DNA from: a virus
Direction: 5' to 3' (one strand)
DNA: 21,586 bases
Virus record (IMG/VR): IMGVR_UViG_3300020183_000532
Coordinates: 1-21,586 of that record
Positions 1 to 10,490 of the stretch are shown in pieces; position 1 is the stretch's first letter, and each line of letters begins with the position of its first letter. The notes under the pieces are model-generated. The model ran no database searches. It was not told the DNA's origin and saw nothing but the letters and a program-made list of their open reading frames with translations. The position numbers were made by a program, and so were the translations under genes.

Positions 1-17
1 GGATCTTTTAGTCCCAT
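1..17 (-). CDS. Start of next gene (5' fragment), probable prohead scaffold
   Basis: Only the first codons are inside the window: ATG at 17 to 15, then MGLKD, running off the low-coordinate edge. The ATG overlaps the TGA of the protease gene in an ATGA arrangement, and a strong GGAGG (positions 24 to 28) sits six bases upstream, so a real start is likely. In T4 the gene after the prohead protease (21) is the major scaffold protein (22); the scaffold identity here rests only on that synteny, because five residues cannot show it. Confidence 0.55.
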
Positions 18-628
18 CACTTGCCTCCATAAGAAATTATATCATTTAATATTCTGTCAATTCTATCTGATTTATTAAAGACTTTTTGGAGTTCAGCAGA
101 AGTAATCCTGCGACCCTCTGGAAGCATAAACGCCCCCGGCGTTGATGGCTCGGAAACATAATCCCAACATATAAGTTGAAAGTCATCTTGCACGACGTGA
201 TAATCGCCTTGTTTTTTTGTAGAACCAACTCCTCTAGAAGAAATACCAAGTTTTACGCCTGATCCAACAAGGGATTGAAGAATTTTACCCGAAGGCGTAT
301 CTAGTAATTCGACAGTACCGTATACTGTTCCACCCTCTAAATAAGCTTCACGAATAACGTGAGAAACATTTTTGAGATTAACGACAGATGAATCTGGATG
401 ATCGAGTTCGCCTAGCGCTCTATTTTCTACAATAAACTTTTGATAGTTGCGAATTTCTCTTTCAAGAACATGCTGCGGGTAAATACGACCATTTTGATTT
501 AGCGTATCTGCTTTTTGCAATATGCCCTTCATCATTACCTTACCGTTGTTCTTTTCGCGAGATTCTTTAATCATCTCCGGCGTATAATCGAAGATTTCAT
601 AAGAATTTAATAGGCGCAAGTCTTTCAT
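17..628 (-). CDS. 21: Prohead core protein protease (T4 gp21-like)
   Basis: This is a serine protease of the T4 gp21 type, which assembles inside the prohead core and cleaves scaffold, core and capsid-targeted proteins during head maturation. At 203 residues it is close to T4 gp21 in length. The sequence shows the family blocks: NQNGRIYP near residue 45, ALGELDHP with the presumed catalytic His77, and GISSRGVGS with the presumed catalytic Ser130. These correspond to T4 His85 and Ser140 as I recall them. An AAGGAG at 636 to 641 lies seven bases before the ATG, and the start overlaps the stop of the upstream gene (ATGA), so translation is probably coupled. Its place after the portal and a core-position gene matches T4 order (20, 67/68, 21). 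Confidence 0.93.
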   Translation of the reverse strand: MKDLRLLNSYEIFDYTPEMIKESREKNNGKVMMKGILQKADTLNQNGRIYPQHVLEREIRNYQKFIVENRALGELDHPDSSVVNLKNVSHVIREAYLEGGTVYGTVELLDTPSGKILQSLVGSGVKLGISSRGVGSTKKQGDYHVVQDDFQLICWDYVSEPSTPGAFMLPEGRRITSAELQKVFNKSDRIDRILNDIISYGGK

Positions 629-1494
629 GACTCTTCTCCTTCGTTTTCTGTAAGTTCTTGACGCAGTGTGGAATACAACATGAATTTTGATACTGTAGAA
701 TCGTCCACAGAATCAAGAGATTCTGACAGTATTTTCGATTTTGTATCCTGTAGTTTATCGACAACAAAAGTATTGTCATGTTTTTGAACCGTATAAACGT
801 CAATCGCTTCAAGAAGCCCGCTGCGAACTTCTTCTAACTTTCTCTTGATAGTTGTTTGATCTTCATTAGCGGTGGAAAAAGCGTATGCCTTGATGATCTC
901 TCTTTGGTCGTTATTTAAAGTCGTCGAATATTTTTCATTCAATTTCTTCATCATGACCTTCATAAGAAGACGAGTGGTTCCAGGCGTTTCGTCTATTAAT
1001 GTGTGATCTTCTTTTTTCTTTTCCGTTATTAACCATTCGCGTAATCGATTTTCGTAACTAGCAAGTGACACAATATCAGCTGTACCAATTGGTTTTCTCC
1101 ATTCATTAAATAAAGTTTGTATTGTTGCGTACAATCTATATTCTGCAATTGGTTGATCATAGAAATTTTCGTCTTTAATCATGTGATTGATACTACGTAT
1201 CAATAGAGATTTTTCTCTATCCAACGTATCGTAATCCAAAGATTCGATCGCAGCTCTTGCTTCTTTAAGAATCGATGTCGCGACAGGGTCTCCACTAACT
1301 GTGGTTTTTACTAACGCGTTAAAAATACGAAATTCTTTATACAGTTGAGTACCTGGCTTGAAATATCTACGAAGAATTTTCAAGGCGGTCGACGACTTTC
1401 GTTTGTTGTCTTCAACAAGGGCGCTTGAAATAGTCCTTATCAAAAATTCGTATAGCAAAGCAGTGTTTCTTTTTTTGTTGTGCGTTTTTGACAT
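625..1494 (-). CDS. Unknown protein in prohead-core position (between portal and protease)
   Basis: This is a 289-residue charged, mostly helical protein with no motif I can assign and no membrane segment. It sits between portal and protease, where T4 has the small prohead core proteins gp67 and gp68, so a core or scaffold role is inferred from position only. I chose the ATG at 1494 (MSKTH). The reading frame stays open upstream to a TTG at 1509, but AAAGGG lies well spaced before 1494, while the GGAGA before 1509 is only one or two bases away. The start region is closely linked to the portal stop at 1506, and its own stop overlaps the protease start. It contains several L-x-E stretches (for example ILSES near the C-terminus) that could be gp21-type cleavage sites, but such short motifs are common by chance. 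Confidence 0.72.
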   Translation of the reverse strand: MSKTHNKKRNTALLYEFLIRTISSALVEDNKRKSSTALKILRRYFKPGTQLYKEFRIFNALVKTTVSGDPVATSILKEARAAIESLDYDTLDREKSLLIRSINHMIKDENFYDQPIAEYRLYATIQTLFNEWRKPIGTADIVSLASYENRLREWLITEKKKEDHTLIDETPGTTRLLMKVMMKKLNEKYSTTLNNDQREIIKAYAFSTANEDQTTIKRKLEEVRSGLLEAIDVYTVQKHDNTFVVDKLQDTKSKILSESLDSVDDSTVSKFMLYSTLRQELTENEGEES

Positions 1495-1505
1495 CGTACG
1501 CCCTT

Positions 1506-3503
1506 TCAATCTCCATCAATATTAAATAGATCGTTTTCTTCGGTAATTAATGTTTGATCGTTTATTTCTTCTGAAAGTAAACCTGAATTTTGTCGTTGCG
1601 TTATTCGTAATGCGGTAGACATTTTTTGAAGTGTCGATTGTAACGATATTGGTAAATTTGGACGAATATAATCTTCTTCAAATGAGTGAGATTCCTTGAG
1701 GGGATTAATCGCTCTTTTTAAATCAGCCATTCCGTGCGGGTCCTTCATGCCCATCCCGTCTGCGTCATAGTCTGTCATACCCTTGAAGTCTGGCATGTGA
1801 TCCTGGTATTTTTTTCTGCGGCTTTGATCGTATAAAGCTTTTTTTAGTTGCGATTGTGCCTTTACTGGCAATTTGTCTTTTTCGAATAATGCTGGCATAA
1901 ATTCTTCTAGATCGTCGCCGTTTGTTAACAGCTCTACATCGATATGTTTTTGTGATATATCATCGCCCGCAAATAAACTTTCGCCTGCTTCTTCTCCGCC
2001 TGTCTCTTCTTCACCGGCCGGTGGAGTTTCTTCTTCACCAGCAGATTCTTCTTTACTGCCACTCGCTGCAGCAGGTTCTTCTTCCGGTTTTGCAGCGTCT
2101 ATCGTTTGATCAACGATTTTTTCTTGATAACGCTGCTCGTCTATTTCGCCTATTTGTTCGTCTGTAAGACCCCAAATCATTTTACGAGCAAATTGTTTGC
2201 TACCCATGCCTTCTGGTATCGATCCAGCTATTTCGAATTTGGAGCGCCAAAGTTCTAGTTTTTGTTGTTGCGCGACAGTAGAAGGATTAGAAAGACGCAA
2301 TGTAAAGTTTTGAAGATCTTCGGCGTCAAAACCATTCGCGTATAAGTGAACTATCGCGAGTTTATTAAGCTCTGATATAAGAACTTTTTGAACAACGTTG
2401 ATGGTTCGAGAAAAGCGAATATCTTCCTGCGCAAGAGTCGCTTTAGACGCCAACATCTCATCGTATCCTAAATATGCGCGTGGTATCTTCAAAGCAGCAA
2501 ATAGTTTTTTCTGAATATATGCTACGTCTTCTACCGCCGCGGCGTTTTGCCCGCCTGCCAGGGTGTCAATTCTAGTACCAGATTCTCCTCCACGAACAGG
2601 TATAAAATAATCGTCCTCTATGCTTAGCGGAGCATAGCGAAGATCTAAACGACCCGTTGCTCTATCTACTACTTGATTAGTGCGAAGATTTTTGCGTTGC
2701 TCCTCGACATACATTGGAACGTTTTCTGGCGGAATATTCGCGACGTCAATATAGAAAACGCGCCGCTCCGGTGCACGAACAACGCGATAAACCAACATCG
2801 CGTCCTCGATAAGAATTAGCTGACGCCAGATACGTCGGGCCGGCTCTATGACGGAAGAACCGTAAGGAAGGAACATATCGTTTCCGAGTAAACGAAAGTG
2901 AGTTACTTCCCAGTTTTCTAATGTTCTATTACCTAAGGTGACCCATCGATATCTCACTGCGAATGGATCGTTGGGATCGTAATTTTCTTCTCTCTCAATT
3001 TCGTTTACCGGGATAGGGAAAGCGTTAATGACGCCATATTGTGGTGATACGTCGTTGTAGAGGAAGAAGTCTCCATATTTTACAAGATTACGTGCCCAGG
3101 ATCTTAGGTTGAATTCGACGTTGAGAGTATTGTAGAAAAGGTCTTCTAGGATCTCTTTGATCTTCTCGTTGTCAGAATAGACGTGTAATGCGCGGCCTTT
3201 GTCATCTTGTGCTACGGTCTCGTCAGCATAAATGTCCATCGCCGCGGCTATTTCTGGCGTGTATTCCATTTCGCTGAAGTCTTGATATCTCATCAAGCGT
3301 TCAGAGAGGTTATACGCGTTCGCTGTTATCGTTGCGTAAGAAGGAGCTAAAGATTTTTGAAATAGTAACGCGCCTGAAGATTTCGTTTTGTCGGCAACGG
3401 CGATAGTGGTATCGAGAGTTCTAAGCTTGCGTTTTACTACAGGACCACTTTTAAAAAGTTTCGATAATCTTTGAAATAACGATTGCGGTTCTTTTTTTAT
3501 CAT
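1506..3503 (-). CDS. 20: Portal protein (T4 gp20-like) with acidic C-terminal extension
   Basis: The portal protein forms the dodecameric ring at the unique vertex through which DNA is packaged and to which the neck attaches. The strongest T4 gp20 signatures are LVYRVVRAPERRVFYIDV in the middle, followed by DRATGRLDLRY, EDDYFIPVR and the DTLAGGQN block, all in family order. At 665 residues it is longer than T4 gp20 (about 524). The excess is C-terminal: a low-complexity Glu/Ala/Gly stretch at about residues 466 to 505, then a charged tail ending NIDGD. The start is ATG 3503, not the in-frame TTG at 3521, because GGAGAGG (3513 to 3519) precedes it by nine bases. That ribosome site lies inside a hairpin (separate entry). 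Terminase lies upstream, with one small gene between. Confidence 0.95.
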   Translation of the reverse strand: MIKKEPQSLFQRLSKLFKSGPVVKRKLRTLDTTIAVADKTKSSGALLFQKSLAPSYATITANAYNLSERLMRYQDFSEMEYTPEIAAAMDIYADETVAQDDKGRALHVYSDNEKIKEILEDLFYNTLNVEFNLRSWARNLVKYGDFFLYNDVSPQYGVINAFPIPVNEIEREENYDPNDPFAVRYRWVTLGNRTLENWEVTHFRLLGNDMFLPYGSSVIEPARRIWRQLILIEDAMLVYRVVRAPERRVFYIDVANIPPENVPMYVEEQRKNLRTNQVVDRATGRLDLRYAPLSIEDDYFIPVRGGESGTRIDTLAGGQNAAAVEDVAYIQKKLFAALKIPRAYLGYDEMLASKATLAQEDIRFSRTINVVQKVLISELNKLAIVHLYANGFDAEDLQNFTLRLSNPSTVAQQQKLELWRSKFEIAGSIPEGMGSKQFARKMIWGLTDEQIGEIDEQRYQEKIVDQTIDAAKPEEEPAAASGSKEESAGEEETPPAGEEETGGEEAGESLFAGDDISQKHIDVELLTNGDDLEEFMPALFEKDKLPVKAQSQLKKALYDQSRRKKYQDHMPDFKGMTDYDADGMGMKDPHGMADLKRAINPLKESHSFEEDYIRPNLPISLQSTLQKMSTALRITQRQNSGLLSEEINDQTLITEENDLFNIDGD

Positions 3504-3511
3504 GATTTCTT

Positions 3512-3534
3512 GCCTCTCCAATTAGGGAGATGGC
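3512..3534 (-). promoter_or_regulatory. Hairpin covering the portal Shine-Dalgarno site
   Basis: In the minus-strand RNA, bases 3512 to 3519 can pair with 3526 to 3534, giving eight Watson-Crick pairs with one bulged base (3531) and a six-base loop (3520 to 3525). The 3' arm contains the GGAGAGG that should serve the portal ATG at 3503. I see the pairing directly; a regulatory role is inferred from T4 genes such as e, soc and 49, whose ribosome sites are masked in long transcripts. Confidence 0.45.
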
Positions 3535-3579: not shown

Positions 3580-3936
3580 TTATGCTCCTACGACGGCTTT
3601 GGTTGTCGGTTTTACTGAAACCTTTTTTTCATCCCCGGAAGCCCCCGTTGTCGAAGGTGGAGTCTTAGGACCATCGACGTACTCCATCGGTGAAACTACT
3701 ATTCTTTTCAAGATTTTTTCGGTTTCTAATAAATGTTTGTCTAGCGCAACTGCACTTGCGTCCGCGCTAGATTTTGCTTTTGCAGACGCCACTGACTTAA
3801 AAGACTCGATTGCTTTAAGAAGCTTGCTAGCGTTTTGAGCCATTGTTGCAGCTTGATCTTCGCGGTCGCCTTCCTTCAAAACTTTAACTTCTTCTGAAAT
3901 AATTCTTCTTAGTTGCGAAATTGTTATCTTTGGCAT
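3580..3936 (-). CDS. Small probable internal/core head protein with LRRIISEE N-terminus
   Basis: This 118-residue protein lies between terminase and portal. T4 has sheath (18) and tube (19) genes there, so it occupies a T4-atypical slot. Residues 9 to 16 are LRRIISEE, followed by a Lys/Glu-rich start, an Ala/Ser-rich probable helix (about 28 to 85) and a Pro/Thr/Gly-rich tail. The N-terminal motif recurs in the protein encoded at 9492 to 10490 and contains I-S-E, which fits the (L/I)-x-E cleavage rule of the T4 prohead protease. I therefore infer a protein carried into the prohead and processed, but no enzymatic domain is visible. The start is supported by AAGGA six bases upstream. It could instead be a minor decoration or core protein. 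Confidence 0.7.
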   Translation of the reverse strand: MPKITISQLRRIISEEVKVLKEGDREDQAATMAQNASKLLKAIESFKSVASAKAKSSADASAVALDKHLLETEKILKRIVVSPMEYVDGPKTPPSTTGASGDEKKVSVKPTTKAVVGA

Positions 3937-3980
3937 ATCGATTCCTTAACTTTAATAGATATTCTCTTCAAGCTATAAAT

Positions 3981-5588
3981 TTATCTATATAGCCAAGAAA
4001 AATCTGTAACGTCAACATGTTTAATTTGAGAAGGGTCTTTAGGCTTATGCGCCTCTCTCGGATTAAATCCACTCATCATAGCATTGGGAACAGGTTTAAC
4101 TGATTTAATATCGCCTGGCATATTATTTTGTTGTTCGACCTTCGTCGCTTTTAACATCGCATATGCTAATGCTGTTGCTTGTTCATTTGCTATAGAATCT
4201 CCTGCAACCAGCCATGCAGCGATTGCGAGACTCATGATAAGGTCATCGTGAGCATCTTTTGCAGCTTGAGCCCTCGCGCCGTTCCAGACGAAAGCTTGCA
4301 ATTGGTCGTATAGACGTTGTGAATAAATCTTAATTTTATTGTTTCTAGCCAGTTCTTCTAGTTTTGCCAATATTTGGCCTCGCGTTTTTGTTTGCGTTGA
4401 AAAACCAGGTACCGCGTTAGGGTCTGTTGGTCTAAATTCGAATGGGTCTCCCGAAGCACCTTGGTAATATAGTCTCGGATAACCGTTATCTCTTAATTTG
4501 ACGCAAGTAAAATAACCAAAAGTATTTTGTTCCGGGCATATTAACGCGTCGTTATATAGTTTGCCGTATTCGAATAATAAGTCTGCTAATTTATCTGGCG
4601 GTATTTTGCCCATATACTCTGCAACAACTTCGCAAGTTGAATTATTGACAACATGAAATGTTGAAAAATCTCCGGCGTCTCCTCTCGCTACATCCGAGGC
4701 AATAACATATTTGCTGCCCGATTCAGGTCGCCTCCATATCCAAACAGCCGACTGAGGACCGATTTTTTCTAATGGTGGTCGAATTGACTCTCTTATGGTT
4801 TCAAGGTCGCTTGGCTGTAGAAACGTATCTCCTGATGAGATAAAGTCGCAAAGAAACTCTTGAGCTACCTTGCGCTTCGGTAAATTTTTTGTCTCTTTAT
4901 CGAACCACTCTTGATCATGTTCTGGGTGGACCCACCAAGCAAGTTTGGTGGTATTGAACTCATTCTGTTTCGTTTCTCCGTCCATCCAGAGACGATAGTA
5001 TTGACCGCCGACGCCATTGGGGGTAGAGATAATGATCGCATTGCCGCCAGTGGACAAGGTGGGATATAGACCAGTCCAAATGTCTTCAAAGTCTCTAATA
5101 AACGCAGCTTCATCGACGATCAATAGAGATAGCGCTTCTGAACGACCGGCGTCGGGCGACGTTGGAATAGCGTTAATTTGTGAACCATTATCGAATCTAA
5201 TAGCTTGTTTGGTAGGCTCGAATTTAGTAAGAAGTAACCACTTTGGTAAGCCATCTAACATGATCTTCACTTTTTTAATGAAGTTCATTGCCGTAGATAA
5301 CTTGGTCGCAATAACTAAGACGTTTTTATCTTTTTTGAAAATCGCAAACCATACCGCGTATGCGGCAGTAACAGTTGATAATCCTAACTGGCGAGACTTA
5401 AGAACTATGTTGAAACGATTTTCTTGAAAGTTCTTTACACAGTCATCTTGAAAATCGTAAGTTTCAAAAGGAATAAGCCCACGCACAGTGTGCTGGATTT
5501 TTACGTAATTTTTCATAAAGTAGACCGGATCTTTTCCACATCGTACGATCTCCTTTATTTGTTCGTTTCTGGTAAGAGGTTGCGTCAT
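3981..5588 (-). CDS. terL: Terminase large subunit (T4 gp17-like)
   Basis: This is the packaging motor and nuclease: it hydrolyses ATP to drive DNA into the prohead through the portal and cuts the concatemer. The 535 residues contain both domains. In the ATPase domain, the P-loop-like KSRQLGLST is at residues 64 to 72, Walker B LLIVDE at 155 to 160 with catalytic Glu160, and the STPNG coupling motif at 189 to 193. In the RNase H-fold nuclease domain, the acidic residues are likely Asp299 (ASDVARGD), Glu353 (CPEQN) and Asp448/449 (DAHDDLIMSLA). The P-loop lacks the usual GKT lysine (T4 has GKTT), so Lys64 or Arg66 probably serves, as in other deviant terminase P-loops. The ATG overlaps the upstream stop (ATGA), with no clear Shine-Dalgarno sequence, which suggests translational coupling. 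Confidence 0.96.
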   Translation of the reverse strand: MTQPLTRNEQIKEIVRCGKDPVYFMKNYVKIQHTVRGLIPFETYDFQDDCVKNFQENRFNIVLKSRQLGLSTVTAAYAVWFAIFKKDKNVLVIATKLSTAMNFIKKVKIMLDGLPKWLLLTKFEPTKQAIRFDNGSQINAIPTSPDAGRSEALSLLIVDEAAFIRDFEDIWTGLYPTLSTGGNAIIISTPNGVGGQYYRLWMDGETKQNEFNTTKLAWWVHPEHDQEWFDKETKNLPKRKVAQEFLCDFISSGDTFLQPSDLETIRESIRPPLEKIGPQSAVWIWRRPESGSKYVIASDVARGDAGDFSTFHVVNNSTCEVVAEYMGKIPPDKLADLLFEYGKLYNDALICPEQNTFGYFTCVKLRDNGYPRLYYQGASGDPFEFRPTDPNAVPGFSTQTKTRGQILAKLEELARNNKIKIYSQRLYDQLQAFVWNGARAQAAKDAHDDLIMSLAIAAWLVAGDSIANEQATALAYAMLKATKVEQQNNMPGDIKSVKPVPNAMMSGFNPREAHKPKDPSQIKHVDVTDFSWLYR

Positions 5589-5962
5589 GCTATTTCGAAA
5601 GAAGTCTTTCTACGAATATAGGCCGTTCTTTTTGGATTGTGAACGTTAAATCCGATTATTTCTACGGACGTCGTAGTGTTGTATTCGCTCGTCGTTAAGG
5701 TTTCACCTGATAGATCTTTATAGACTTCCTTTACTCGTTTAAGAACTTCTGCAATAACGCCGCGTGATTCTTCTTCGTACATTCGCTTCATTACTATCAT
5801 TTCTTTTTCAGAAGCAAAATTGACGATAGCTTGATAAGAAGCTACTAAAACGTCGCCAGCCAAAGAAAATTTCACAGAATATGATGCGGTCTTAGGCGTA
5901 GATGTGCGGCCCCATGTCGTGTCTATGGCTTGGCCTAATGCATTGTAATCGATTTTAGGCAT
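5585..5962 (-). CDS. Unknown 125-residue protein coupled to terminase
   Basis: I do not recognise this protein. It has a central charged helical stretch (about residues 52 to 86, KEMIVMKRMYEEESRG onward) between beta-type segments, and a C-terminus rich in Thr, Arg and Lys. GGAGAT sits five bases before the ATG, which is good support for the start, and its stop overlaps the terminase ATG. In T4 the gene directly before the large terminase encodes the small terminase gp16, so a packaging or head-joining role is possible. However, I see no gp16-like coiled-coil pattern strong enough to name it. It may equally be a small neck or head protein. Confidence 0.7.
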   Translation of the reverse strand: MPKIDYNALGQAIDTTWGRTSTPKTASYSVKFSLAGDVLVASYQAIVNFASEKEMIVMKRMYEEESRGVIAEVLKRVKEVYKDLSGETLTTSEYNTTTSVEIIGFNVHNPKRTAYIRRKTSFEIA

Positions 5963-5991
5963 AGTATCTCCAACACTTAAATATACAGCTC

Positions 5992-6297
5992 TTACTCGAA
6001 GACAATATGAGGATTAATAAAAAACCGTTTTTTAACGGCTTTTTCTATTTTGTCTTTGTCTGGTCGCCATCCATTTTGCCATTCTGTTTTATGAGAATAA
6101 ACCCACGTATCTGCGCAGGCGCTACAACAACCAAATGTTTTATAAGTTTTTTCATCTTCTTTGTTGCTAAAACTTATTTCACAAATATCGCAAAATAATG
6201 GCATGCTTTTATTTTCGCAATTATCAGGTATTATCAAAGAATATCCGTTTTTATGGCAAATTTTTCTATTTTTGGGATAAGACGACCATTCACTCAT
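5992..6297 (-). CDS. Small Cys-rich, probably zinc-binding protein
   Basis: This 101-residue protein carries CDIC at residues 36 to 39 and CCSAC at 57 to 61, a C-x2-C ... C-x2-C arrangement typical of a small zinc ribbon. It is followed by a Trp-rich stretch (TWVYSHKTEWQNGWRP) and a basic helix. The start overlaps the stop of the SbcD-SbcC fusion (ATGA), and GGAG lies seven bases upstream. This kind of protein could bind nucleic acid or act as a transcription accessory factor, but nothing in the sequence fixes its role. Its coupling to the recombination gene suggests co-expression with it. Confidence 0.75.
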   Translation of the reverse strand: MSEWSSYPKNRKICHKNGYSLIIPDNCENKSMPLFCDICEISFSNKEDEKTYKTFGCCSACADTWVYSHKTEWQNGWRPDKDKIEKAVKKRFFINPHIVFE

Positions 6298-9200
6298 GCA
6301 TCAACTCCAAAAAAGACTTTTGAGTCTTTTTCATTTTTTGTTATTTCTAAAACATGATCGACAACATCTTTCACACCATCAACATGCGTAATAATCAATA
6401 TTGTCTTAAAGTATTTTTTTAAAGATGTCAGCAACCTATTGCAGGCTTCAACCGAAGAATCATCTAAAGTACCGAAACCTTCGTCTATAATAAAGATGTC
6501 GGGTTTCGGTAACGTCGATATGTTGATCATCGCGGCGCGAATAGCCAATGATGCAATCGTTTTTTCCATACCAGAGCAAAGCTCTACGATACGTCGTGAA
6601 TCACCATAGTTGATGTAAATTTCAGAAGAATCCGTGCCTTCATCATTTTCTAATTCAATTGTAAAATCTACTATGCCATGTAGAATTTTCGCTATTTCAG
6701 CATTGATGATTGGTAACTGTGTTTTGATAATAATAAGAGGAATGCCTTTCTTAGAAAAAGCGCCAGTTACTAATTCGTGAACTTTCATTTTTTCTAACAA
6801 ACTATCTCTTACATTTTTTTCTTCTTCATACTTTTCTAAGCTGGCCGCTAATCTACCTTTTTGAGTGGCAGCAGCTAATTTTTGTGCAGAGAGAGCATCA
6901 ACGTCGTCAGAAATAATTTTTATTTTCGACCTTAGGGAAACAACTTCTACATTTTCTTCGTTTTTTAAGGCTTCTTGTAGGTGCTTTAATCGTTGTTTGG
7001 CTTCTTTTAATTCATCGACCTGAGAATCATAATTGACGCGATGTTTTTCGAGCGCAGCTTCTCTCTTAGAAGATTCTAGAAGTAATTTATTTTCCAATTC
7101 TAAAAGTTTTTCTAATTTTTCTAGTTTATCTGCGACATTTTCTTCTTTTAGTTTATCTAAGGAACTTGCGGCGTCTTTTAGTTTTTCTTTCGCTAGTTCT
7201 GTTTTCTTCGTTTGTTCTATTACCTTAGTCTTGCTGATATGAGCATCTTTGATAAATTTGCATGTCGGATACTCATCTCCACAAGGTACTTCATCTAAAA
7301 TTTTTAAAGATTTTTGGTGTTGTTTCAAAGAAATTTCTTCTTTGTCGTAAGCGTACTGCAACGTTTGTAGCGTAGATTCGAGACTTTTATAAGCGTCGCG
7401 ACGAAGTTTTAGATCTTTGATGTCATTTTCTTTTTTTACTAAAGAAATTTTATCTAACTTTTTTGAAGAATCTAAGATTTCGATGTTTAATTTCTGTATT
7501 TCTTTTTCACAATTATTGACTAATGTTTCCAACGACGATATTCGTCGTTGATGTGCTTCAACTTCATTTTTCGTAACTGGCGTTACATCCTTGCGTTTAG
7601 CTAGCACAAGTTGTAACGTCGATTGATCGTGCTGTTTTTCTTTGATAAGTTGTGTTAATTCTTCGATTAGTTTATTCGCGGCGGCGATTGAGTTTCTTGT
7701 CGTTTCAAATAAGTTTTGCCAATCTCTATCAGGACAATTTTTTAATTGCGATTTTAAACTCGTCAATTCTTTATTTGCTAATTCGTGCATTTTATCAAAG
7801 ATATCGAGATCCAGAAATTTTGATAACACAGCTCGACGTTTTGTGGAACCTTGAGAGATAAAATGATTGGTTTCACCTTGCGCAGCTAAAGAAGTCATCA
7901 TAAAATCTTCTTGGTTTCCGATTAGCGCGCGAATTACTTTTTCTGTGTCGTTTCTCTGTTCACCAGCCAAATCTTCTGCTTCGCCGTCATCCCTAATCTT
8001 AAAAACATTTAATGAAGTTGAGGCGTTTATGATGCCTTTTTTATTTTCTGTTTTCGAAGTTTGTCTTTCAATAACGTAGTCAGTTCCATCGTGGTTAATG
8101 ATAGTTTTCGAGGAACAATACGGTTTTCTAATGTTACAAACGTGAATATTTTTTACGGGTCCGCGGTCCGTGGCGTTAAAGAGAGAATACATCAAAGTAC
8201 CGACTATCGAAGATTTGCCAGCTCTATTCGGTCCAAAAACACCGACTATACCACTTAAGTTATCGAAATTAATTACATTATCTTGTCCGTATGCAAACAT
8301 GTTATCAAACGCGAGGTAACGTAACGACCATTTTGAATTTCTAGTAATATCATCCTGTGCAGTGACGCTTGAAAGACAATTTTTGACTTGCTCAGCGAGA
8401 GTATCCCACTCGGGCCGAGATATTTGCGCGCTAGAATAATAGTCTTTTATTAACTTTGTTAAAACATCTGGATTTCTTAAATCGGCTTTTTCGAGCGTCG
8501 AAGAGCCCGTTTTAATAACTGATTTATCTACAATAAAATCTGATTTAAAAGTTACTTCTGTGGCTAACTTTGCATTTTTTAACGTTTCACTAATTAATTG
8601 AAAGTCCTTTTGCCCAAGAGCGTCAGAGGATCTAATCCTAAAACGAGAACCGTCCGGGTGGATAGACGCTGTCGTTAATAAATCCTTGGTTGAACCATTC
8701 CACTGAATAGTCACATAAGGCTTTGGATTGGGTAATTTTTTGAAATTGACGTCCCAAGTTCTTTGATCATCAATTTCCCAAAGCAAATAACCATGATCTA
8801 ATTCTTCTGCATAATTTTGTTGAACTGGCGTGCCAGGATAGGATATCCACGGTTTCTTTTTTCCATTTAAACAATCTCGATATCCGAGATGTTGCATTTG
8901 ATGAATATCTCCGAGCATGACGAAAGGATAATCTTTAAAAAATTCAAGATTCATTCCTTCCATTTCCCATCCTACTTCAGTTTTAGATCCTTGAACCGGG
9001 CCATGATAGCATGCGATATTTACTTTTCCGCTTTGCGGTCTAACGTCATTCCAACCCTCTTCATCAAAAAGTGAATATACACACCAGTTATATCCTGGCT
9101 GAAATTCATATATACCACTCTTTTTGTATAAGTGGACGTCAGGATTATTTAGCGCTTGTACTATAGGCGAAACTGCATCTTGTCTCGAAAGATTAACTAA

Positions 9201-9455
9201 ATTACCATCGTGATTTCCTAGTGTTAGATGAACTGGCGCGATTTTTGCCATCGAGTCTAACCACCATGTTAATTGATCAATATATTCTGGTGAAATACCC
9301 GTAGTTTTTGTGTGAAAAATATCACCGCCTATAAAGATGTGATCAACTTTATTCTTTTTACAATCTTTGATGAATGTAGAAAAAATTTCTCTATATTCAT
9401 CGTGTCGACTTAAACCACGCCAATGAATATCGGCAGTGTGAGCAATTTTAACCAT
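6294..9455 (-). CDS. Single-chain Mre11-Rad50 type nuclease-ATPase (SbcD-SbcC / gp47-gp46 fusion)
   Basis: One polypeptide of 1053 residues joins the two subunits of the SbcCD/Mre11-Rad50 recombination nuclease (T4 gp47 and gp46), which processes DNA ends for recombination-dependent replication. The N-terminal phosphoesterase has DIH (9 to 11), GGDIF (43 to 47), GNHD (80 to 83), CYHG with His151 and GDIH (182 to 185). After a linker the ATPase has Walker A GPNRAGKS (408 to 415), a Q-loop near 526, and coiled-coil arms at roughly 555 to 720 and 738 to 895 around a C-x6-C turn (Cys725, Cys732). It ends with signature LCSGMEK (959 to 965), Walker B IFIIDE (987 to 992) and switch His1024. The start is ATG 9455 rather than the preceding TTG 9458. 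No Shine-Dalgarno sequence is visible. Confidence 0.95.
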   Translation of the reverse strand: MVKIAHTADIHWRGLSRHDEYREIFSTFIKDCKKNKVDHIFIGGDIFHTKTTGISPEYIDQLTWWLDSMAKIAPVHLTLGNHDGNLVNLSRQDAVSPIVQALNNPDVHLYKKSGIYEFQPGYNWCVYSLFDEEGWNDVRPQSGKVNIACYHGPVQGSKTEVGWEMEGMNLEFFKDYPFVMLGDIHQMQHLGYRDCLNGKKKPWISYPGTPVQQNYAEELDHGYLLWEIDDQRTWDVNFKKLPNPKPYVTIQWNGSTKDLLTTASIHPDGSRFRIRSSDALGQKDFQLISETLKNAKLATEVTFKSDFIVDKSVIKTGSSTLEKADLRNPDVLTKLIKDYYSSAQISRPEWDTLAEQVKNCLSSVTAQDDITRNSKWSLRYLAFDNMFAYGQDNVINFDNLSGIVGVFGPNRAGKSSIVGTLMYSLFNATDRGPVKNIHVCNIRKPYCSSKTIINHDGTDYVIERQTSKTENKKGIINASTSLNVFKIRDDGEAEDLAGEQRNDTEKVIRALIGNQEDFMMTSLAAQGETNHFISQGSTKRRAVLSKFLDLDIFDKMHELANKELTSLKSQLKNCPDRDWQNLFETTRNSIAAANKLIEELTQLIKEKQHDQSTLQLVLAKRKDVTPVTKNEVEAHQRRISSLETLVNNCEKEIQKLNIEILDSSKKLDKISLVKKENDIKDLKLRRDAYKSLESTLQTLQYAYDKEEISLKQHQKSLKILDEVPCGDEYPTCKFIKDAHISKTKVIEQTKKTELAKEKLKDAASSLDKLKEENVADKLEKLEKLLELENKLLLESSKREAALEKHRVNYDSQVDELKEAKQRLKHLQEALKNEENVEVVSLRSKIKIISDDVDALSAQKLAAATQKGRLAASLEKYEEEKNVRDSLLEKMKVHELVTGAFSKKGIPLIIIKTQLPIINAEIAKILHGIVDFTIELENDEGTDSSEIYINYGDSRRIVELCSGMEKTIASLAIRAAMINISTLPKPDIFIIDEGFGTLDDSSVEACNRLLTSLKKYFKTILIITHVDGVKDVVDHVLEITKNEKDSKVFFGVDA

Positions 9456-9458
9456 CAA

Positions 9459-9491
9459 TTAATGATATATTAAAACTATAACATTGTTCAA
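9459..9491 (-). promoter_or_regulatory. AT-rich gap before the SbcD-SbcC gene, weak promoter candidate
   Basis: This 33-base gap lies between the 332-residue gene and ATG 9455. On the minus strand it begins TTGAAC and has TATATC 16 bases later, each matching sigma-70 -35/-10 boxes at four of six bases. If real, transcription would start almost at the ATG, which would fit the missing Shine-Dalgarno sequence (leaderless message). AT-rich phage DNA gives such matches often, so this is a weak call. Confidence 0.15.
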
Positions 9492-10490
9492 CTATACGGC
9501 AGCCGCCGTTGCGGTTGCAGCGGCAACATTGGAAGCTTGTATAATCCCTGCGACCTCTTCAGCGCCACGCGCTAATTCGACACCTTTAACTGCAGTGGCT
9601 CCACCCTCAACGAAACCGAGAAGAGATGCGCCGGCCTTTAATACGCTGATTAGACCGTTAATCGCAAAATAAATTAACAATGCTTTATAAACCAAGCCTT
9701 CTGTTTTTTTACGAGCTCCCGTTTTATCTGCATCAATTTTAAAATCTTCGTATGAAGATAACTCTTCCTTGGAAGAAACGTGATAACCTTTATTGTTTAA
9801 AAACTTGTAGATTTCGTACGATAACCTGTCGGGAATTACATAATCAACAACTTTTTCCTCAAACGCGTGGGCTACATGCTCTGCTTTTTCAAATAACTCC
9901 GCCACCTTAGTTGCCTTAAGATAAGTCGCTAATTTGTGCAATCCTTTAAATAGCAAAGGTAAACCTCCAACGATTGCTAGACCAAAACCCAATATAGTTT
10001 CTGGTCCCATTTCGTTTAAAATTTCGTGTTGTCGAACATACTCGCTGGTATTTAATATCGAATACACTTCGCCTATGGCTTTTTCAGATTTTTGTAGTTG
10101 TTTTGCAGCGTTGTGAACGGGTCCCTCTAAGTCTGCTTGTACTATAGACAAAGAAGCTTCCTTCTCTAGGCTCTTGGCTTTCCTTAGCGCGTCATTAAGA
10201 GGCAAAGATTCGCCAGATTGTTTCATGCCTTCTTTAACAGCCGATATGATGAGATCTAGTCCTTCTGGTTTTTCTTCTTCTAATCCAACAATTTTTTCAT
10301 TAATTGTATTCGCCCATTCTACCGCGACTGATTTGAATTTTTGAGTAACGTAATCAGAAAGTTTTTTTACGCCATCTTTAACATCATCCCATAAACCTTC
10401 TTCGATAAGATATTTTCTTTCAATTTCTTCTTGAACTATCCGACGAAGACGAGCTTCTGATATGATACTATTATGAGTTGCGTTCTTCAT
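9492..10490 (-). CDS. Probable internal virion/membrane-active protein with capsid-targeting-like N-terminus
   Basis: This 332-residue protein is of unrecognised family. Residues 8 to 23 read SIISEARLRRIVQEEI. The first part resembles the T4 capsid-targeting sequence ending FIAE/A, and the second matches the N-terminus of the 118-residue protein at 3580 to 3936. Two hydrophobic segments (about 163 to 183 and 267 to 293) could span or perturb a membrane, and the last 28 residues are very Ala-rich. I infer a protein packaged in the head, trimmed by the prohead protease and perhaps ejected with DNA, but a membrane protein of another kind is possible. The ATG lies 12 bases after the primase stop, with only AT-rich sequence and no Shine-Dalgarno site before it. 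Confidence 0.72.
   Translation of the reverse strand: MKNATHNSIISEARLRRIVQEEIERKYLIEEGLWDDVKDGVKKLSDYVTQKFKSVAVEWANTINEKIVGLEEEKPEGLDLIISAVKEGMKQSGESLPLNDALRKAKSLEKEASLSIVQADLEGPVHNAAKQLQKSEKAIGEVYSILNTSEYVRQHEILNEMGPETILGFGLAIVGGLPLLFKGLHKLATYLKATKVAELFEKAEHVAHAFEEKVVDYVIPDRLSYEIYKFLNNKGYHVSSKEELSSYEDFKIDADKTGARKKTEGLVYKALLIYFAINGLISVLKAGASLLGFVEGGATAVKGVELARGAEEVAGIIQASNVAAATATAAAV

Follow-up and report, generated by a model that had tools for sequence, protein, structure and literature searches.

The question raised by the viral record IMGVR_UViG_3300020183_000532 is why two of its proteins, otherwise unrelated, begin with the same N-terminal segment. The record is 21.6 kb long and was analysed over its whole extent of 21,586 nucleotides, hereafter the window; it comes from a far-T4-type myovirus related to T4 and is a fragment of its genome. 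The preliminary description of the window interpreted the common motif LRRI[IV]xEE of these proteins, P1 and P2, as a modular prohead-targeting tag that is removed by a gp21-type protease, and this is the best-supported reading. The common N-terminus is most likely a prohead-targeting propeptide, comparable in its action to the capsid-targeting sequence (CTS) of phage T4 but with a different sequence and with far more cargo. The shared start itself is real. P1 begins with MPKITISQ followed by LRRIISEEVKVLKEG, so that eight residues precede the motif, as had been described. P2 begins with MKNATHNSIISEA-R-LRRIVQEEIERKYL; here the motif is present, and one arginine separates it from SIISEA, which it was said to follow directly.

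The motif [LI][RKQ][RKQEN][IL][IV]x[EQ][EA] was searched for in 1,361 called open reading frames (ORFs) of the window and nine related contigs (61–298 kb, whole). It was found 35 times, and 33 of these matches started within the first 20 residues, which make up 7.2% of all residues; the motif is accordingly biased to N-termini and not internal genome-wide. Shuffled proteins gave 0.4 matches in total. Motifs of this kind, short, helical and rich in L, R, I and E, are common, and two N-terminal helices could resemble each other by accident, but the position and the counts of the motif exclude chance as their source, and the likelihood of such an accident is negligible.

A start-blind DNA pattern for LRRIIxEE was also applied to all of IMG/VR (115 stretches) and to bacterial and archaeal species genomes (at least 118 stretches). 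An ATG was located exactly seven codons upstream in 73 of 116 viral matches versus 2 of 119 bacterial ones, among the bacterial matches listed. Independent viral cases number fewer than 73, because some are near-identical copies of one gene; many distinct proteins are nevertheless represented. One of the two ATG-locked bacterial matches shares its protein start with a viral contig. A metagenome bin of Halobacteriovorax (L482) contains one tagged protein with a start identical to one in the viral locus L258; the contig may belong to a phage and have been binned with Halobacteriovorax, and it was not used as host evidence. At about position 7336 (+) of locus L294, LRRIIQEEL lies deep in an ORF, 386 codons beyond the preceding stop and just before a protein-kinase-like glycine-rich loop, and may be an internal tag or a chance match.

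Tags of the LRRI[IV]xEE type, sought in related phages, were found on many otherwise unrelated proteins. After removal of the tag, 238 tagged proteins from 127 sources formed 106 families by blastp at E 1e-3, and 121 families once further genomes were added; these counts are upper bounds, since remote relatives may be split. Three tagged families are wide, namely, F00 (containing P1), F01 (proteins of about 80 residues, 38 members) and F02 (containing P2), while the rest are mostly singletons of 57–502 residues. Tagged genes often form arrays: the 101 kb contig G010 contains 17 of them, 14 within about 9 kb, the 273 kb contig G020 contains roughly 19, and more than twenty candidate tags were found in the uncultured phage LR756508.1. 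Tandem arrays such as that of G010, together with a blastp threshold that splits remote relatives, would be compatible with a single old paralogous family, expanded by tandem duplication and diverged everywhere except at the N-terminus, in which the shared start would reflect ancestry and not a signal. Such an origin is highly improbable, as the proteins range over the lengths given above, differ in content (the all-helical P2, cysteine-rich proteins, a P-loop-like protein) and lose conservation sharply at the putative cut. Even if paralogy is true of some arrays, conservation limited to the first 22 residues still needs a signal.

Per-column conservation, determined with one representative per family, showed a tag of about 22 residues with the consensus M-[KR]-[IL]-T-x-x-Q-L-R-[RK]-I-I-[KR]-E-E-[VIL]-x-[KR]-[VL]-[LI]-x-E/[AGSD], in which the slash marks the predicted cut. 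The conserved columns are M, K/R, I/L, T/S, two loose positions and Q, then the core L R R I I K/R E E, the first L of which is position 0; after the core follow V/I/L at +8, K/R at +10, V/L at +11, L/I at +12 and E at +14, and background is reached from +16. Judged from the sequences, this is the pattern of a single amphipathic helix.

The cut had been proposed at I-S-E/E of P1 or V-Q-E/E of P2, that is, within the core EE. This placement was set aside, because the frequency of that site carries no weight when the search motif itself fixes the position. Better supported is the second [LI]xE of the tag, which follows some eight residues later, where the tag helix ends; this site lies outside the search motif and is independent of it. 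At +14, [LI]xE was present in 36 of 106 families versus 0–4 at offsets beyond +16, and within +10 to +20 in 65 of 106 families versus 8–16 in control windows. The first and last positions of the site (P3 and P1 in protease numbering, not the proteins) are coupled, L/I occurring with E in 69 cases against 32.8 expected (sd 3.6; maximum of 45 in 2,000 column permutations). The mode of the propeptide length is 22 residues, with L, I or V at P3. In the tags of G020, the spacer is longer, and [LI]xE shifts along with it, as in ..YSRLKRQGLITE/T and in GLITE/T, GLLAE/T and GLISE/G.

The same kind of site was found in the capsid protein. In all 11 aligned major capsid proteins (MCPs) of tag-bearing phages, an N-terminal segment ENQ/QNQ..Q[VLI][LVI][KS]E/[SAN], for example LLENQAAQVLKE/S, ends at residue 55–62; in T4 gp23, FLTE ends at residue 65, and the gp23 propeptide in T4 is 65 residues long (PMC9026906). 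A profile made from the tag site only ranked the MCP site first in 7 of the 11 proteins and among the top three in all 11, out of 523–620 positions per protein. The two segments can be set in one gap-free register, II-KEEV-xK-VL-xE of the tag against LL-ENQA-AQ-VL-KE of the MCPs. The profile also found recurring high-scoring [LI]xE sites in the scaffold proteins. One more head-cluster family, encoded just after the protease (e.g., G002:255870-256283 (-) and G006:7736-8158 (-)), starts with MGITKxQLKxIVKECLVEILxE/G and keeps the register of the tag; it was not picked by the motif, because C replaces the second E at +7.

The genomic context points in the same direction. The preliminary description regarded P1 and P2 as products of two distant genes; both belong to one syntenic head-assembly cluster, the order of which in relatives is F02, terminase (terL), F00, portal, ORF294, protease, F01, scaffold and MCP, with some relatives missing families. 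All three of the widest tagged families map to this cluster. The gp21-type protease noted earlier in the window was confirmed as a member of Peptidase S77 (Table 1). Among tag-bearing records, all ten with a length of at least 142 kb had a gene for an S77 protease, whereas ten records in which the motif matched by chance (up to 136 kb) had none. Tag-bearing records without S77 (those tested, up to 104 kb) are probably fragments, because the gp23 gene is absent from them as well.

These results also bear on the suggestion that the N-terminus is a docking helix for another phage or host complex, such as RNA polymerase, the membrane or the replisome, and that its carriers act during infection without being packaged. 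Docking in general could be mediated by an amphipathic helix, and most of the cargo consists of small orphans, often arrayed away from the head genes. Docking predicts neither a coupled [LI]xE where the tag ends nor its shift in G020, neither the match to the capsid propeptide nor the place of the widest families in the head cluster and the link to S77, and it is improbable.

Under the propeptide reading, the tag would form an amphipathic helix of about 15 residues, with M-K-[IL]-T ahead of it and the protease site [LI]-x-E/[AGSD] closing it. In T4, ten N-terminal residues are enough to target IPIII, co-purification with gp22 is seen for the internal proteins, and L/I-x-E is the site after which gp21 cleaves (PMC9026906). 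By analogy with IPIII, gp22 and gp21, the most likely binding partner of the tag helix during head assembly is the scaffold core, so that any protein with the tag would be built into the prohead. The S77 protease of the window, the presumed tag-removing enzyme, would then cut after [LI]xE and free the mature cargo inside the head, and the mature proteins would be expected in virions. The computed evidence bears on modularity, a cleavage site and association with the head; scaffold binding, packaging, actual cutting and ejection are inferred.

Several observations weigh against this interpretation. The second-widest family, F01, has the second [LI]xE in only 2 of 38 members, and at +8 to +23 no [LI]xE is present in 37 of 106 families. 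An amphipathic helix alone would give part of the hydrophobic spacing, and the coupling test and the comparison with the capsid proteins tell helix periodicity and protease motif only partly apart. Confidence in the AlphaFold models of the two window proteins is modest. The tag was absent from T4 and Rhodothermus phage RM378, and no clear case was found in Microcystis phage Mel-JY01; therefore, the tag is not needed for a T4-type head. As for F01, its representatives, such as the 80-residue tagged protein at L002:13033 (+) with protease and scaffold neighbours, keep the tag without the second [LI]xE (missing in 36 of 38), and may be core proteins like gp67/gp68 that are matured differently.

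Analysis of P1 and P2 indicates likely cuts at VLKE22/G and LIEE31/G, respectively. E22 of P1 is invariant among 25 aligned homologues, and 48 of the 55 members of F00 contain the second [LIV]xE, 41 of them at the same offset. E31 of P2 is invariant among 16 homologues, and [LIV]xE is present in 18 of 18 members of F02. In the AlphaFold models, the tag helix comprises residues 6–20 of P1 (mean predicted local distance difference test score, pLDDT, 63.9) and residues 12–30 of P2 (mean pLDDT 68.5), with a break at the predicted cut in both. The site I-S-E/A, also put forward for P2, is conserved (E12), although it is not the preferred cut, since E31 matches the general tag end. Both E12 and E160 of P2 are retained as [LI]xE in nearly all homologues. 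The site at E160 is located in a low-confidence linker of the model (residues 151–172), and the two hydrophobic stretches of P2 are at about residues 166–184 and 265–288; P2 may be split at E160/M161 in this flexible linker, setting the hydrophobic half free, which might act on the host membrane. No convincing Pfam or PHROG match was found for P1 or P2, and a fold search with P2 gave no match at E<=0.001.

Table 1. Features of the tagged proteins and of the surrounding head genes in the window
Feature	Position	Strand	Details
Prohead protease, gp21/Peptidase S77 type	17..628	-	Pfam PF03420 E=1.7e-26; PHROG 207 E=4.6e-51
ORF294, conserved head-cluster gene, portal on one side, protease on the other	625..1509	-	Synteny in relatives analysed
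Portal protein, gp20 type	1506..3521	-	PHROG 213 E=4.5e-70
P1, 118 residues, family F00, small helical tagged protein, terminase and portal genes on either side	3580..3936	-	ORF 3936-3580
Predicted P1 propeptide, residues 1-22 (MPKITISQLRRIISEEVKVLKE), predicted cut E22/G23	3871..3936	-	
Core motif LRRIISEE of P1, residues 9-16	3889..3912	-	
Terminase large subunit, gp17 type	3981..5588	-	PHROG 2 E=1e-52
P2, 332 residues, family F02, all-helical tagged protein, two hydrophobic stretches	9492..10490	-	ORF 10490-9492
Possible second protease site in P2, L158-N-E160/M161, precedes the hydrophobic half	10011..10019	-	[LI]xE in 15/16 homologues
Predicted P2 propeptide, residues 1-31 (..SEARLRRIVQEEIERKYLIEE), predicted cut E31/G32	10398..10490	-	
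Core motif LRRIVQEE of P2, residues 15-22	10425..10448	-	

Pfam and PHROG scans of the tagged cargo revealed no usable function. For 79 tagged representatives, only seven weak Pfam matches were obtained (best E 0.0013), versus 62 Pfam families for 79 length-matched untagged proteins of the relatives, ten of those listed at E <1e-20. Proteins encoded at L124:5413-6321 (+) and L146:4140-5198 (+) contain an FDFDDT motif, a DUF2608 match and a tag-like start helix (LRKLIREIIEEE and IRRIIKEEAENV), and are possible packaged phosphatase-like enzymes. A tagged protein of 502 residues (L292:1984-3489 (+)) contains a P-loop-like stretch (VVLYGPPAAGKG) and has no Pfam match at E 0.01.

Large phages encode mainly orphan proteins, and for about 100 orphan families the tag predicts both a location within the head and the mature N-terminus; the predicted cut sites are exact and can be checked by mass spectrometry. 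Ejection of the cargo into the host, against its defences or for takeover, is speculative. That large uncultivated T4-related phages carry their roughly 20 tagged orphans per genome, many of them in arrays, inside the head and eject them together with the DNA as anti-defence and takeover effectors deserves slightly less than even credence; if this is true, the tag allows the delivered arsenal of a phage to be read straight from its sequence. IPI of T4 blocks a restriction enzyme, and if this precedent holds, the tagged proteins are a candidate list of injected counter-defence proteins. The tag could also be used for loading foreign proteins into such heads.

Among the other genes of the window, one ORF of 1,054 residues (6294-9458 (-)) shows an SbcD-like match at residues 1–382 and an SbcC-like match at residues 339–1048, so that the functions of gp47 and gp46 appear to be fused in a single protein. 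The ORF at 5992-6297 (-) encodes a protein of 101 residues with many CxxC pairs, probably zinc-binding. The nearest named phages by terminase, at about 40% identity, are Flavobacterium phage immuto, Microcystis phage Mel-JY01 and the 484 kb LR756508.1. In the last of these (W01), the portal and prohead protease matches are split into pieces (~145787-149524 and 156489-158102), which suggests that these genes are interrupted by inserts such as introns or inteins. Two or three weak tag cases were found in immuto. A short-peptide tblastn search against named phages matched LR756508.1 alone and found no cultured carrier, and a literature search, outside which most subscription journals lay, found no report of the tag motif.

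Uncultivated Far-T4 phages, known from T4-type gp23, portal and terminase genes in freshwater contigs, probably belong to the same broad group; a term search of their description found no N-terminal tag (PMC4360716). In the ejection proteins and other head proteins of phiKZ and SPN3US, N-terminal propeptides are likewise cut by a gp21-like protease; phiKZ, however, cuts after S/A-x-E and not after [LI]xE, and the propeptides of SPN3US are mostly longer than 70–100 residues, in contrast to about 22 here (PMC5694885, PMC9026906). Similar to T4 gp23, matured by gp21, the MCPs of tag-bearing phages keep the propeptide end at the homologous place, with V-L-K-E/S or V-L-K-E/A instead of F-L-T-E/A. 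The closest counterpart is the CTS of the T4 internal proteins IPI, IPII and IPIII, which is also a short N-terminal propeptide ending in [LI]xE, the gp21 motif, on otherwise unrelated cargo of mostly unknown function, with a gp21-type protease in the same genome (PMC9026906, PMC3012670). Here, too, unrelated proteins share a short N-terminal peptide with an [LI]xE end, F01 being an exception for that end, and a gp21-type protease is encoded alongside. The T4 CTS, MKTYQEFIAE/A (in T4 at 65718 and 66415), has 10 residues, whereas the tag has about 22 with a conserved LRRIIxEE helix; only M-K and I-x-E are common to MKTYQEFIAEA and the tag, which is less than descent by sequence would call for. 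T4 has three such proteins; here, a single record can contain as many as about 20 tagged genes, and the families exceed 100 in total. The tag is thus a real and widespread modular N-terminal signal which, although not alignable with the CTS of T4, most likely functions as a CTS of the T4 type.

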